From NCBI GenBank assembly GCA_028823145.1, contig JAPKCA010000010.1, positions 1-38,999 of the forward strand: a stretch of 38,999 nt of DNA. The letters are read 5' to 3'. Positions 20,523 through 25,926 of this stretch are shown here, piece by piece. The notes beneath the pieces are model-generated. The model was not told where the DNA came from. It saw nothing but the letters and a program-made list of their open reading frames with translations, and did no database searches. The DNA comes from Flavobacteriales bacterium (GTDB lineage Bacteria; Bacteroidota; Bacteroidia; Flavobacteriales_D; Sanyastnellaceae). A program made the position numbers and the translations under genes. The stretch's first letter is position 1. The number at the start of each line of letters is the position of its first letter.

Positions 20523-20569
20523 TTCAAATGCAGGCATGATTTGATGGGTGAGAAACGCGAGGTGGCATG

Positions 20570-20577
20570 TACTTTTG
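20570..20577 (+). promoter_or_regulatory. -7 element (TACTTTTG) of the ctaB-cox operon
   Basis: TACTTTTG is an exact TAnnTTTG match 16 bases before the chosen ctaB ATG. A TTTG at 20540-20543 lies 26 bases upstream, slightly farther than usual. The element would lie inside the coding sequence if the upstream start at 20567 were used, which favours the ATG at 20594. Confidence 0.5.
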
Positions 20578-20593
20578 TGCCCACGCTAAGCTC

Positions 20594-21457
20594 ATGCCTG
20601 AACGCTTCAAAGACATTGCCGCCTTATTCAAAATCCGCCTCGGATTTTTTGTTGTGCTTTCCGCCATTCTAGGTTGGTTTATGGCCGTGGACACCATTGA
20701 TCTGAATGCTCTCTTGTTGTTGAGCATCGGTGGATATTTGTTAACCGGCGCATCCAATGGTCTAAATCAAATCATAGAAACCCGGGTCGATGGTTTGATG
20801 GCACGAACCTCGAATCGTCCTTTGCCCACGGGGAGAATGAGTGTCCGTGAAGCATGGGTGTATAGCATCTTAGCGGCATCCGTTGGTTTGTTTTGTTTGT
20901 TTTCGTTAAATGCCCTGAGCGGATGGCTAGGGGTTGCAGCGCTGGTAAGCTATGCATTCATTTACACCCCCCTCAAGGGGAAAACATCCTTGAGTGTCTT
21001 CGTTGGGGCCTTTCCTGGCGCGCTCCCGCCCATGATTGGCTATGTGGCGGCAACGGGCGACTTCGGAATTGAACCTGGATCGCTGTTTGCTGTTCAGTTT
21101 ATGTGGCAATTCCCTCATTTTTGGGCCATCGCTTGGCTCGCACACGACGACTATCAGCTGGCTGGCTATCAAATGCTGCCCTTCCAAGCTGGCCGCAGTA
21201 AACGCAGTGCTTGGCAAATCCTGATGTACACCCTTTTTTGCATTCCCGCCTCTATGCTTCCGTGGGCACTTCCCAGCGGAACTCCGATGGTAGGCGACTA
21301 TGCTTTGGTGGTTGCCATCCTGTGCGGAATTATGTTCATCATTCCCGCCGCTCAATTGTACCGCTCCTTGGATATGAAGCACGCACGACGATTGATGTTT
21401 GCCTCTTTTATCTATTTGCCCGTTGTGCAACTCGCATACGTTCTCGATAAGCTTTGA
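20594..21457 (+). CDS. ctaB: Protoheme IX farnesyltransferase (heme O synthase)
   Basis: The 287-residue UbiA-family membrane protein adds a farnesyl group to heme B to make heme O for heme-copper oxidases. The first prenyl-diphosphate motif lies at 55-80: NGLNQIIETRVDGLMARTSNRPLPTG, with Asn55, Glu62, Asp66 and the RTxNRP tail typical of CtaB. Other marks are YTPLKGKTSLSVFVGAFPGALPP and the second motif HDDYQLAGYQMLP. Eight or nine helices are predicted. It leads the oxidase assembly operon, with the cox3 genes directly downstream. Confidence 0.96.
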   Translation: MPERFKDIAALFKIRLGFFVVLSAILGWFMAVDTIDLNALLLLSIGGYLLTGASNGLNQIIETRVDGLMARTSNRPLPTGRMSVREAWVYSILAASVGLFCLFSLNALSGWLGVAALVSYAFIYTPLKGKTSLSVFVGAFPGALPPMIGYVAATGDFGIEPGSLFAVQFMWQFPHFWAIAWLAHDDYQLAGYQMLPFQAGRSKRSAWQILMYTLFCIPASMLPWALPSGTPMVGDYALVVAILCGIMFIIPAAQLYRSLDMKHARRLMFASFIYLPVVQLAYVLDKL

Positions 21458-21472
21458 ACCCCGATTCCAACC

Positions 21473-22279
21473 ATGGCCATGAATAACCAAAGCCCCTCTG
21501 CATCCAAAATGGATGTTTTTGACGGTCTCGAACCTGAGGTTCGCGAGCGCACGAAAAAAATGCTCATGTATTTCATCGTATTCGCGGTGGTCATGTTATT
21601 TGCTGGATTTACAAGTGCCTATATCGTTTCCAACATGGGGCAGTATTGGGTACATGTCGATCCCACGAGTGCCTTCTGGATTTCGAACGTTTTGTTGTTG
21701 GGGTCTAGCACCTCACTCTGGTTTGCGATCAAGAGCATGCGTTCCGGCAAAAAAAACAACACCTTGGTCGGATTGGGCTTGACCCTGGCCATGGGAATTG
21801 GATTTACCTTGAGTCAAGCTGAAGGTTGGAAAAATCTTTCTGACATGGGGCTGGGTTGGAATGTTACAGACCATGAATCCGGCATGCAAGCATACCGGTG
21901 GAACAACATCGAAGCCATGATGGAAGGACCCGCTGTTTACGGCCAAGATTATTCGATCACACGAAACGGAGAGCCGATCCTTTTTGATGCGAGCAAGAAT
22001 GAATTTTACGCCACAAAAGACGTCCTGATGGTTCGCCCAGTCACCCGAGAAGTCGCTCGGACATCCAATTCGGGTGGAGGCTACCTATGGATTCTAATGG
22101 GCGTTCACATCCTGCACTTGACATTTGGATTTGTGTATTTGGTGATCAATGGGATTCGGGTTGCCAAAGGCACGATCCATTCAAACGATGTAGTGCAGCT
22201 TCAGACCCTCAGTATATACTGGCATTTCATGGGTGCCCTCTGGCTTTATCTTTTTCTGTTCTTGTTTTTTATGCATTGA
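21473..22279 (+). CDS. Heme-copper oxidase subunit III (first copy, with periplasmic-type insertion)
   Basis: The 268-residue protein has five hydrophobic helices (about 31-52, 68-87, 98-116, 204-225, 248-267) and the family ending QTLSIYWHFMGALWLYLFLFLFF. An insertion of about 85 residues (118-203), rich in charged and polar residues, separates helices three and four. Subunit III stabilises the catalytic core of cytochrome oxidase. It starts 15 bases after ctaB. A second ATG at 21479 is an alternative start. The catalytic subunits I and II are not in the window. Confidence 0.87.
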   Translation: MAMNNQSPSASKMDVFDGLEPEVRERTKKMLMYFIVFAVVMLFAGFTSAYIVSNMGQYWVHVDPTSAFWISNVLLLGSSTSLWFAIKSMRSGKKNNTLVGLGLTLAMGIGFTLSQAEGWKNLSDMGLGWNVTDHESGMQAYRWNNIEAMMEGPAVYGQDYSITRNGEPILFDASKNEFYATKDVLMVRPVTREVARTSNSGGGYLWILMGVHILHLTFGFVYLVINGIRVAKGTIHSNDVVQLQTLSIYWHFMGALWLYLFLFLFFMH

Positions 22280-22428: not shown

Positions 22429-23409
22429 ATGGGCGGAGAAGCGACAAAAGTGATTTCAAAGGATGTTCTCTGGGGAGGAGGGCAATCTCCCTTTAGCGTC
22501 AGTTATGGCAAAATGATGATGTGGTACTTCCTCGTTTCAGACGCCTTGACGTTTGGAGGATTGTTGACCGCGTACGGTTTCGTTCGCGCGAGCAGCACGG
22601 ACCCATGGCCGATTGGGGAACAAGTATTCCGGGCACTTCCGTTCATGGATGGAGAGTACCCCCTGATTTACGTCGCATTGATGACTTTCATTCTCATTGT
22701 TTCTTCGGTCACCATGGTGATGGCTGTTGAAGCGGGGCACCGCAACGATAAAAAAAGAGTGGTCACTTGGCTCGGCTGGACCGTGCTCGGAGGGTTCATC
22801 TTTCTAGGCTCGCAGGCTTGGGAGTGGTCGCACTTCATCCATGGGAGTGGTGGTTCTTTTTTATTGACTAAAAATGTCTCGGTCACTTCGGATGACGGCC
22901 AAGAATTTGACTTGCTCAAGGGCGAAGCGGTCTTCATGGACCACCATTTTGGATATCTGGCAGAGCCTTGGATCGAAGGCGAACCTCAGGTCTCTTTGGT
23001 AGAGAGTGATCACGGAGTGAAATTGGTGGAAATGGGAGAGCATCCTCATGAAGCGGAATTGCACAGCCTGACGCTGAACAAATACATCGCCAACGAGGTG
23101 CACGTCAGCGGAGAAGACGCTTTGAAATTGTGGAACGCTCGCTCCGAGAGTTTCTCGTTTGGAGCCAACATGCACGACAATGAATACGCTATCCAACAAT
23201 CGTATGCCAACTTCTTCTTCTTCATTACGGGATTCCACGGATTCCACGTGTTTTCTGGAGTCCTCATCAACTTGATCATTTTCATTATGGCTTATCGCGG
23301 GGTGTTTGAACGCCGTAAGCACTATGAAATGGTAGAAAAGATTGGATTGTATTGGCACTTTGTGGACTTGGTGTGGGTCTTTGTATTCACCTTCTTCTAC
23401 CTCATCTGA
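22429..23409 (+). CDS. Heme-copper oxidase subunit III (second copy, longer insertion)
   Basis: The 326-residue protein has helices at about 29-50, 77-101, 113-130, 258-289 and 305-326 and a conserved end (GLYWHFVDLVWVFVFTFFYL), typical of CoxC/CtaE. An insertion of about 115 residues (140-255) between helices three and four contains many histidines and acidic residues (MDHHFGY, GEHPHEAELH). It sits at the same place as the insertion in the first copy. Two subunit III genes in tandem are usual in Flavobacteriales oxidase loci. Confidence 0.93.
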   Translation: MGGEATKVISKDVLWGGGQSPFSVSYGKMMMWYFLVSDALTFGGLLTAYGFVRASSTDPWPIGEQVFRALPFMDGEYPLIYVALMTFILIVSSVTMVMAVEAGHRNDKKRVVTWLGWTVLGGFIFLGSQAWEWSHFIHGSGGSFLLTKNVSVTSDDGQEFDLLKGEAVFMDHHFGYLAEPWIEGEPQVSLVESDHGVKLVEMGEHPHEAELHSLTLNKYIANEVHVSGEDALKLWNARSESFSFGANMHDNEYAIQQSYANFFFFITGFHGFHVFSGVLINLIIFIMAYRGVFERRKHYEMVEKIGLYWHFVDLVWVFVFTFFYLI

Positions 23410-23446
23410 CTCGGCCCTTACCAGCAAACCGCTCAAATTACGCCTC

Positions 23447-23824
23447 ATGGAACGCGACGATCTCATAGTCAACGACAACTACGCCTTGAACGCTCATCAC
23501 AGCGAGGAGGAAGGTGCTAAAATCCGTAGGAACACCTGGAAAGTCACAGCGATACTGACGGTTTTGACGAGCCTTGAAGTAGCGATGGGCATTTATTTCA
23601 AGCGCTCTGATTCCTTCTCTTGGGTCATGATCAAATGGACCTTTATTGTCTTGACCTTAGTCAAAGCTGCATACATCGTTCTCGTATTTATGCACCTGGG
23701 TGACGAGCGGAGCAATTTAAAAAAAGCAGTCCTGGCCCCTTATATCTTGTTCGTCGGCTACTTGCTGTTCATAGCCATCACCGAAGGGTTTGGGCATATG
23801 AATCTCAGCAACGAGCACCACTGA
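23447..23824 (+). CDS. Cytochrome c oxidase subunit IV (prokaryotic type)
   Basis: The ATG at 23447 gives 125 residues; the in-frame extension to 23342 overlaps cox3. After a soluble N-terminus rich in His and acid residues, three helices follow (about 31-48, 55-76, 90-109). The family motif TFIVLTLVKAAYIVLVFMHLGDE lies across the second. CoxD-type subunit IV assists assembly and stability of the oxidase. It starts 37 bases after the second cox3 gene. Confidence 0.9.
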   Translation: MERDDLIVNDNYALNAHHSEEEGAKIRRNTWKVTAILTVLTSLEVAMGIYFKRSDSFSWVMIKWTFIVLTLVKAAYIVLVFMHLGDERSNLKKAVLAPYILFVGYLLFIAITEGFGHMNLSNEHH

Positions 23825-23903: not shown

Positions 23904-25139
23904 ATGGAACCGACCCCTACCAACCGCCTGAAGAAGATCGTAATTCTGACCAGCATCATGCTCGGTCTACCGCTAACGGGATTGTTGCTCCTTGGTGTAT
24001 TCGGAGAGCACCATTTCAACACACTTCCATACTTCAGCACCGAAGGTCCTATCGAAGCCTGGTCAATCGATGCCCGAAAAGTCCATGATTTCGAATTGAC
24101 GAATCACGAAGGGGTCCCCTTCTCTTCTTCCGCGCTAGATGGCAAGGTTTGGCTCGCCTCTTTTTATGGGACCAATGCACCCCATGTCGCACAAATGACC
24201 AAGCAGTTATTGTGGCCCAATTTCAGGTACCGGGATGAGAGTGACATTGCAACCGTCTGTTTTACGCTTGACGCAACGCATGACCAGCCCGACGTATTGA
24301 AAACATACGTAGACCAAAACACGCGCTACAACGGTTCCGCAGGAAAATGGCAATTCCTCACTGGCAACCAATCAGAAATTGACGCCCTGATCGCCGAATC
24401 GTTCATGATTCAAAGAGATTCTGCTGACCTCAATAACGTGGCTACGCTTTGGTTGGTTGACGCCAAGGGGTATTTACGCGGCGTATACCATGCGGCATCC
24501 GAAGATGGCATCAAGGACGCCGTTGAAGATATTGCATTGCTTCAAAAGGAAATGGACGAGGCATCTTACCACCAGAAAAAGGCACGGCAAAAAGCAGAGA
24601 AGCTTCCGGCCCTTCCAGTCTTGGGCACACCAGAACATGTCGTGCCGCCTTTCGCCCTTCTTCAGATGGACAGCACCGAATTTTCTCATCGGAATGTGAG
24701 AGGACGACTGCGCATTGTGGATTTCTTCTTTACCCGCTGCCCTTCGATCTGCCCTATCATGAGTAGCCAGATGGCTCGTCTTCAATTCGCATTACGTCAA
24801 CGGGATATGGAACACGATGTGCTCTTGTTGAGCCATTCGGTCGATCCGACCTATGACACCCCGAGCAAACTGACTGCGTACGGTCAACGACTTGGTGTCG
24901 ACACGACGCAGTGGCAGCTTTTGACAGGAGACCAGGAGGTCATATACGATCTTGCACGGAACGGGTATTTCATGACCGCTTTGGAAAGCGATACCGCTGC
25001 CGGAGGCTTTTTTCATAGCGATGTGTTCGCGTTGGTCGATCGTCAGGGTCAGATCCGTGGCTACTATGATGGCACTTCCACTGAATCTGTCGATCAGCTG
25101 CTCAACGACACCGAAACTTTGTGGCTCTTAAATCAATGA
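23904..25139 (+). CDS. Double-domain SCO protein: metal-dead first domain fused to an intact SCO domain
   Basis: The 411-residue protein has an N-terminal anchor helix (12-33) and two SCO/thioredoxin-like domains. The second (about 245-405) is a normal SCO: Cys279 and Cys283 in TRCPSICPIM and His371 in GGFFHSDVF form the copper site used to mature the CuA centre. The first (about 58-212) has the same strand order, including WQFLTG (149-154, matching WQLLTG at 337-342) and LVDAKGYLRG (matching LVDRQGQIRG). Its three ligands are replaced by Ala92, Ala96 and Asn178. Residues 213-235 form a charged helical linker. SCO normally has about 200-220 residues. The first domain may be structural or partner-binding. 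The stop overlaps the DUF420 start (ATGA). Confidence 0.85.
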   Translation: MEPTPTNRLKKIVILTSIMLGLPLTGLLLLGVFGEHHFNTLPYFSTEGPIEAWSIDARKVHDFELTNHEGVPFSSSALDGKVWLASFYGTNAPHVAQMTKQLLWPNFRYRDESDIATVCFTLDATHDQPDVLKTYVDQNTRYNGSAGKWQFLTGNQSEIDALIAESFMIQRDSADLNNVATLWLVDAKGYLRGVYHAASEDGIKDAVEDIALLQKEMDEASYHQKKARQKAEKLPALPVLGTPEHVVPPFALLQMDSTEFSHRNVRGRLRIVDFFFTRCPSICPIMSSQMARLQFALRQRDMEHDVLLLSHSVDPTYDTPSKLTAYGQRLGVDTTQWQLLTGDQEVIYDLARNGYFMTALESDTAAGGFFHSDVFALVDRQGQIRGYYDGTSTESVDQLLNDTETLWLLNQ

Positions 25140-25684
25140 TTATGCTTAAAAACGAACGCGCCGTCAAACGATTCATTTGGATTGTCGCCGTGGCCATTCC
25201 AGCCGCAGTTGCCATCTTGTTCTTCATTCCACCTGCAGAAAACTTAACGAAAGAGACTCAGGAGGCGCTGTACTTTTTGCCACAATTGAACGCCTGGTTC
25301 AATGGAACGGCTTTCTGTTGTCTCATCGCCGCTCTCGTGGCCATCAAACAGAAGAACATTGCCGTGCACCGCGCATTGACCACCACAGCTTTGGTGCTCA
25401 GTGTGCTTTTCTTGCTCAGTTATGTGACGTTTCACCTCACAACGGCTTCTACTCATTACGGCGGCGAAGGATGGATGAGAACCGCCTACTTCATCATCCT
25501 CATTTCACACATTGTGCTGTCGACGGTCATCATTCCACTGGTTTTGTTCACCTATGCCCGCGGTTTGGGAATGCAAGTGGAGCGGCATCGTAAAATTGCT
25601 CGCTATACTTGGCCGATTTGGGTGTACGTGACCGCCACGGGTGTCATTGTTTATTGGATGATCTCCCCTTTTTATCCCGTTTGA
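25136..25684 (+). CDS. DUF420 membrane protein (CtaM-like oxidase assembly factor)
   Basis: The ATG at 25136 overlaps the SCO stop (ATGA) and gives 182 residues; the next codon but one is also ATG (25142). Five hydrophobic helices are visible, with conserved histidines in VHRAL, YVTFH, ISHIVLS and RHRKIARYTWPIW. DUF420 proteins next to cox genes include CtaM of Staphylococcus aureus, needed for maturation of an aa3-type oxidase, so a role in heme or copper handling is likely. Its stop overlaps the next start by one base. Confidence 0.87.
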   Translation: MIMLKNERAVKRFIWIVAVAIPAAVAILFFIPPAENLTKETQEALYFLPQLNAWFNGTAFCCLIAALVAIKQKNIAVHRALTTTALVLSVLFLLSYVTFHLTTASTHYGGEGWMRTAYFIILISHIVLSTVIIPLVLFTYARGLGMQVERHRKIARYTWPIWVYVTATGVIVYWMISPFYPV

Positions 25685-25926
25685 TGTCAAATCGTGCTCT
25701 CCACTTGATTTTTGCAATGGGCCTCCTCTTTATGATGTTGCCCGATTCATTGGAAGCACAATGTGTAATGTGCAAAGCCGTTGCGGAAGACAGCGCCGCT
25801 GATGGCGGCCTAGGAGCTGGACTCAATCGGGGCATTCTCTACCTGATGGCCGTGCCTTACATTTTGTTATCCGCTTTATTTTTCGTAATTTATAAATGGC
25901 GGAAGGAATCTTCTGCCACATCTTAA
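25684..25926 (+). CDS. Small CxxC membrane protein of the oxidase operon
   Basis: The start overlaps the DUF420 stop (TGATG). The 80-residue protein has a signal peptide ending near EAQ (26), then at once a CVMC motif (Cys27, Cys30), a short polar region and one membrane helix (50-70: GILYLMAVPYILLSALFFVIY) with a basic end. I recognise similar QCxMC small proteins after DUF420 in other Bacteroidota oxidase loci, but know of no assigned function. The CxxC on the periplasmic face suggests copper or disulfide chemistry for oxidase assembly. That is inference from context. Confidence 0.8.
   Translation: MSNRALHLIFAMGLLFMMLPDSLEAQCVMCKAVAEDSAADGGLGAGLNRGILYLMAVPYILLSALFFVIYKWRKESSATS

Follow-up and report, generated by a model that had tools for sequence, protein, structure and literature searches.

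A pseudo-SCO domain fused in front of a canonical SCO domain in a cytochrome c oxidase operon of Flavobacteriales

In the window, by which we mean the whole stretch of 38,999 nucleotides of contig JAPKCA010000010.1 (Flavobacteriales bacterium, GCA_028823145.1) that was analysed, one gene raises the question of what a SCO domain stripped of its metal ligands is doing in front of an intact one. The gene (23904-25139, forward strand, stop included) is a single open reading frame (ORF) of 411 aa, with two SCO domains, here termed D1 and D2, behind a single membrane helix (Table 1). Both domains were matched separately by the SCO1-SenC profile of Pfam (PF02630, curated cut-off 22.8 bits), D1 with 44.6-45.6 bits and D2 with 91.1-91.4 bits, and they retrieved each other by phmmer (34.8 and 36.2 bits); no NCBIfam model matched either D1 or D2. 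These matches bear out the two SCO domains that a preliminary description, made from the sequence alone, had reported in one ORF, and the paired motifs it had named (WQFLTG/WQLLTG and LVDAKGYLRG/LVDRQGQIRG) are present in the protein. D2 has the CxxxC and distal His of SCO1/SenC chaperones (C279, C283, H371); D1, in which the same description had placed Ala92, Ala96 and Asn178 at the ligand positions, was verified on the DNA to carry these residues and is thus a ligand-less SCO, both cysteines and the histidine being absent. The fusion of a pseudo-SCO to a SCO is therefore confirmed as an observation, and the interpretation that accompanied it is, as a whole, partly supported.

Table 1. Features of the fused gene and of its neighbours in the window.
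Feature	Position	Strand	Evidence
UbiA/CyoE-like (heme O synthase, CtaB) gene	20567..21457	+	Pfam PF01040, 178 bits
COX3 gene, first copy	21473..22279	+	Pfam PF00510
COX3 gene, second copy	22429..23409	+	Pfam PF00510
COX4_pro gene, true start probably further in	23342..23824	+	Pfam PF03626
Fused pseudo-SCO/SCO protein	23904..25139	+	411 aa ORF; Pfam; AlphaFold2 model (pLDDT 87.9, pTM 0.70)
N-terminal membrane helix, residues 5-32, without lipobox	23916..23999	+	Model helix; hydrophobicity and lipobox rule on homologues
D1, pseudo-SCO domain, residues 43-199	24030..24500	+	Pfam 44.6 bits; D1-alone model; PDB matches
Ala92 and Ala96 at CxxxC cysteine positions (D1)	24177..24191	+	DNA, sequence comparison
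Asn178 at ligand-His position (D1)	24435..24437	+	DNA, sequence comparison
Long helix linking D1 to D2, residues 200-233	24501..24602	+	AlphaFold2 model
D2, canonical SCO domain, residues 248-408	24645..25127	+	Pfam 91.1 bits; AlphaFold2 model
Cys279 and Cys283 (CPSIC) of D2	24738..24752	+	DNA, sequence comparison
His371 of D2	25014..25016	+	DNA, sequence comparison
DUF420 membrane protein, gene next after fused SCO	25121..25684	+	Pfam PF04238, 144.6 bits; neighbour also in relatives

AlphaFold2 models were built for the full-length protein on an alignment of 42 fused proteins and for D1 alone on an alignment of 49. D1 alone was predicted with a pLDDT of 93.4 and a pTM of 0.89, and the top PDB matches of this model were SCO proteins, both with Foldseek (4hde, E 4e-15; BsSco 1xzo, E 5e-14) and with VIA-align (4hde, Z 20.9; 1xzo, Z 19.4). 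All six sequence-profile matches of D1 in the PDB were likewise SCO proteins (4hde, E 9e-23). The preliminary description had made its reading depend on a thioredoxin/SCO fold in the first domain, and a SCO fold is what the model of D1 alone predicts. Assignment of D1 to another thioredoxin-fold family was rejected, as SCO proteins came out on top in both the sequence-profile and the fold comparison, and so was a TlpA/ResA-type thiol oxidoreductase, since D1 has no redox-active Cys pair and ResA fell below the SCO entries among the fold matches.

The gene order around the fusion (UbiA/CyoE, COX3, COX3, COX4, SCO, DUF420, small CxxC protein) is that of a cytochrome c oxidase operon, with the fused SCO gene between COX4 and DUF420; the PF01040 gene is presumably CyoE. 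The MAG of the window (85% complete) yielded no subunit II match and no further SCO over the cut-off, three other matches being weaker. Within the genus, subunit II was matched in 18/22 genomes, every time weakly, and all six subunit II loci that were read contain C-x3-C-x3-H-x2-M, which we take to be a CuA-type motif, so that a target for SCO exists in the genus. Neither Cox11 (PF04442) nor PCuAC (PF04314) was matched in any of 60 related genomes (43 with a completeness of 90% or more), with Caulobacter as positive control for both and Thermus and Corynebacterium also for PCuAC. As this absence is common to families with and without a SCO pair, it is background to the pair and not its explanation.

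Relatives were searched within the family of the window (f1; f-codes are working labels for the families of the order). Of the 21 other genomes searched in the genus, 19 have the same fused ORF, which rules out a sequencing or assembly artefact; in the two exceptions the locus is cut by a contig end (G004) or a different SCO is the only one seen (G017). The other genera of the family (15 genomes) have the fused form in 5 cases and the halves as adjacent separate genes in 10, and hence the separate gene of the first-domain type, which the preliminary description had proposed to look for, does occur. Because the halves are neighbouring separate genes in many relatives, they probably work as a pair. 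Among the best 80 of 117 relatives, 77 pair loci were recovered; of these, 52 are fused, 22 are split and 3 run into contig ends. The family rows include two genomes a second time (L134 = L230, L128 = L234). At one locus (L049, 4085-4697) the downstream SCO lies in two fragments, by a frameshift, a stop or a sequencing error. A profile of D1 matched strongly (>=142 bits) in 50 of 52 family genomes, being missing in G129 and G145. In the 147 genomes searched from the rest of the order no score exceeded 118.5 bits, and these weaker matches were taken as generic SCO.

Selection on D1 was assessed by dN/dS in 1326 pairs of fused genes, 23 of which had usable dS in both domains. Over these 23 pairs, which share loci and are not independent, the median was 0.069 for D1 and 0.081 for D2; D1 is under purifying selection like D2 and is not decaying. 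It has invariant residues of its own (T..LL..N..Y, KW, R..Y, ED and a K near the end). The earlier judgement that the two copies have diverged strongly and have nevertheless been retained was right.

For the wider distribution, the oxidase slot was read in 12 of the 13 families met in the order (f12 was left out). Six of them (f1, f3, f9, f10, f11 and f13) carry two genes at the slot, a SCO-like one upstream and a SCO downstream, and the other six (f2 and f4-f8) have one SCO. The two genes of a pair are neighbours at this position of the operon; two f9 genomes have 757 and 1092 bp between them (L215, 3015-3771; L217, 3042-4133). From other orders, 40 regions around SCO genes were fetched, of which 15 lie in the slot: 14 have a single SCO, all with C, C, H, and the remaining one is an in-slot pair (L253, 4160-5532, genome G214). 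In this single case, from another order of the class, the upstream copy is transmembrane and lacks CxxxC, and the downstream copy is a lipoprotein with C, C, H. The domain order of the window, for which a search in other Bacteroidota had been suggested, was also found fused in a second family (f3, L196-L199). Four of six separate upstream copies tested score under the Pfam cut-off, and some may therefore be annotated as hypothetical.

Metal sites and N-terminal anchors were then counted by position in the slot. Contig-end loci (L090, L091, L121, L123, L131), generic matches (L132, L133, L135) and ORFs <150 aa (fragments in L169 and L214) were left out of both counts, and the anchor counts additionally exclude the unlinked SCOs L232 and L233. 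Of 129 downstream rows, 128 have C, C, H and the last is masked, and single in-slot SCOs keep C, C, H in 24/25. Upstream rows of f1 have no Cys in either CxxxC column (77/77), the residues there varying freely, and a His in the aligned ligand column in 4/77; Cys119 is nearly invariant in fused D1 and is not kept in split D1 rows. Outside f1, 52 of 53 upstream rows keep the two Cys, and in none of the 53 does a His fall in the aligned ligand column. In 6 of 13 f3 upstream rows a His stands one residue past the ligand column, the aligned column being uncertain at such divergence, and in these copies a metal site may persist. One further observation concerns an f4 genome (G068), the sole slot SCO of which lacks both cysteines (FTRSSTNGPI) and keeps the His (L225, 2971-3672); a second, unlinked SCO of this genome is intact (L282), and G057 of the same genus keeps C, C, H (L054).

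The anchors divide along the same line; that two copies share out the features in this way is the principal new finding. A hydrophobic N-terminal helix was found in all upstream copies (75/75) and a lipobox in none of them (0/75), while 70 of 74 downstream copies have a lipobox; of the other four, two are lipoprotein-like by eye and two have odd, probably miscalled starts. Fused proteins have the membrane helix in 55/55 and a lipobox in 0/55, and single in-slot SCOs have the helix in 24/25 and a lipobox in 0/25. The lipobox rule had been loosened after a stricter regular expression hit 57 of 74 downstream copies, and the loosened rule still gave zero hits in upstream, single or fused rows. What the upstream copy has in common with the single in-slot SCO is thus the anchor, and what the downstream copy has in common with it is the metal site. 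Since single SCOs have both the membrane anchor and C, C, H, the pair looks like the features of one protein split over two copies.

To follow the history of the fusion, a tree was built from the concatenated copies of 53 of the 77 pairs of the family, after removal of near-copies and of one long branch. The fused rows fall into two lineages, one of which also takes in the split pairs L108 and L110 (support 100/99), and a single clade of all 34 fused rows was rejected (AU p 1.6e-5). Two fusions within f1 are the simpler account, compared with one fusion and a later split in which the lipoprotein signal was regained. The fusion in f3 is a further one, of about 400 aa, and its upstream half still has CxxxC. 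Fusion therefore arose at least twice and probably three times, and every fused form examined has the same order of parts and no lipoprotein signal in the linker. To the preliminary description the fusion looked old; this is true of the gene pair but not of the fusion in the window, given that the fused forms of f1 are not one clade and that f3 has a fusion of its own.

The origin of the pair was approached with three trees. In a quick 115-row tree, constraining all upstream copies to one clade raised the likelihood by 19.5 over the free search, and constraining f1 upstream and downstream copies to one clade raised it by 24.5; as constrained likelihoods lie above the free search, this tree was poorly searched. 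A careful 70-row tree, from which 23 loci were left out (three for long branches, the others for thinning), placed the two upstream clades, of f1 and of the other families, apart, and rejected none of the groupings of all upstream copies (p 0.12), of f1 upstream with downstream copies (p 0.096) and of all pairs (p 0.093). A broader tree, of 98 rows, shows a star at its base, so that a lipoprotein SCO may equally have been captured in place of a tandem duplication; off-slot lipoprotein SCOs do occur in the class. The trees allow each of three origins, and the pair may have come from one duplication, from two, or from capture of a lipoprotein SCO from elsewhere.

We consider it fairly probable that the protein in the window is a two-domain SCO chaperone of cytochrome c oxidase, in which D2 would do the chemistry and D1 would serve as anchor and docking part. 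With Cys279, Cys283 and His371, D2 would perform SCO chemistry, i.e. the delivery of copper and/or thiols to the CuA site of subunit II. D1, which has the predicted SCO fold and the membrane anchor but neither CxxxC nor the ligand His, would most likely hold the live SCO at the membrane beside subunit II or the assembling oxidase. In the split species the transmembrane SCO-like protein and the lipoprotein SCO would presumably form a heterodimer, and fusion has turned the pair into a single chain more than once, with loss of the lipoprotein signal of the second copy. We infer docking, heterodimer and oxidase target from the divided anchors, the adjacent genes, the repeated fusion in the same order, the selection on D1 and the CuA-type subunit II of the genus. 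The preliminary description had let the dead domain bind subunit II, apo-SCO or a copper donor; the division of anchors points to a more specific role, and a D1 that docks on subunit II or on the live SCO would be compatible with it. Extended beyond the window, the proposal becomes more tentative, and we hold it with some reserve: in six families of Flavobacteriales, and in at least one case in another order of the class, bacteria with no detectable protein of the PCuAC or Cox11 families might use a heterodimeric SCO in which a transmembrane SCO-like protein docks and a lipoprotein SCO carries copper. The window protein would then be a natural single-chain version, and the complementary losses would have been reversed by fusion about three times.

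Several observations count against docking and have to be weighed with its rivals. Six families of the order do without the partner, which is thus not generally needed. That SCO works without D1 in those families also suits a D1 that is an independent factor (for subunit II folding, for a COX3 subunit or for a copper donor), joined to D2 by their common oxidase alone and not holding it; the shared operon and the conserved D1-specific residues would agree with this as well. We regard such a factor as unlikely, because it does not account for anchors that complement each other, nor for fusions that recurred and lost the lipobox. The wide spacing at L215 and L217, and the upstream copies, which do not resolve as one clade, are further points against docking.

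The two cysteines kept by upstream copies of other families (52/53) make a redox task possible there, and together with the nearby His of some f3 rows and the near-invariance of Cys119 in fused D1 they weigh against docking and in favour of a D1 that is still chemical. Such a domain might have a thiol, redox or metal role, for instance by reducing the D2 cysteines, as proposed for SCO2 towards SCO1, or by lending a ligand to an interdomain site. In f1, however, the CxxxC columns are without Cys in every upstream row and vary freely, and Cys119 is not kept in split D1, which makes a chemical role quite improbable. That D1 is a decaying passenger, retained for its membrane helix alone, could be argued from the lost ligands and from the single slot SCO of another family that also lacks both cysteines (L225), but a dN/dS as low as that of D2, a complete predicted SCO fold, the invariant residues and the strong D1 in 50/52 family genomes make it very hard to believe.

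Compared with known systems, the window protein is like the SCO1/SenC chaperones (PF02630; BsSco, human SCO1/SCO2) in fold, Pfam family, N-terminal anchor, oxidase operon and the CxxxC and His of D2, and differs from them in having two domains per chain, the first without a metal site. The nearest analogue of D1, likened here by its published description, would be plant HCC2, a SCO homologue that is reported to lack both cysteines and the histidine (PMC3971200) and, according to a review, interacts with the metallochaperone module (PMC6696091); the protein is described as mitochondrial and, from its knock-out, as dispensable for oxidase activity (PMC3971200, PMC6696091). Unlike D1, HCC2 stands alone in the mitochondrion and is neither in an operon nor fused. 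Paracoccus ScoA and ScoB are a paralogous SCO pair of reportedly overlapping function (PMC9145763, PMC6696091), likewise two SCO proteins per cell, which are not reported there as ligand-less, divided by anchor or fused. In the mixed-disulfide complex of Bradyrhizobium TlpA and ScoI (4txo, by the title of its entry) a SCO is also paired with a second thioredoxin-fold protein, but TlpA works through its cysteines and D1 has no Cys at the site.

Among the top-listed papers of the open PMC literature, no title or abstract opening reports a Bacteroidota SCO that is tandem or lacks its ligands, nor was an account found there of a SCO-like partner paired in an operon with, or fused to, a lipoprotein SCO. 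Ligand-less SCOs and paralogous SCO pairs are already known, and an operon-paired or fused pseudo-SCO and SCO is without an earlier account in the literature so covered. A keyword search of the main text of two reviews (PMC9145763 and PMC6696091) gave neither Bacteroidetes nor Flavobacteri; as these reviews are silent and 0/60 genomes have Cox11 or PCuAC, copper loading of this oxidase in Bacteroidota seems little described. Docking and copper handling are hard to tell apart in a single-domain SCO; a retained SCO-like partner, found in pairs and more than once fused, would allow them to be studied separately, and the natural fusions could serve directly as constructs for this in a laboratory Flavobacterium. 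F. johnsoniae, whose complex III has already been altered by genetic means (PMC8552683), would be expected to have the SCO pair.

Two other genes were noted. Most genomes of the genus also encode, at an unlinked place, a membrane-anchored SCO from a different subfamily (e.g. G018:C135), with a DFIHTEN-type His motif in relatives; the incomplete MAG of the window has none over the cut-off. Directly after DUF420, at 25684-25926 on the forward strand, lies the gene of a small protein of ~80 aa with a signal peptide, QC(A/V/P)MC(K/R) or similar, and a C-terminal membrane helix, for which no Pfam or NCBIfam family was found. By phmmer it matched 123 ORFs in the fetched loci, near-duplicates included, all with CxxC, and these relatives stand in oxidase operons across the class; the product is a candidate for an oxidase-assembly factor or copper protein not yet annotated in bacteria that lack both PCuAC and Cox11.
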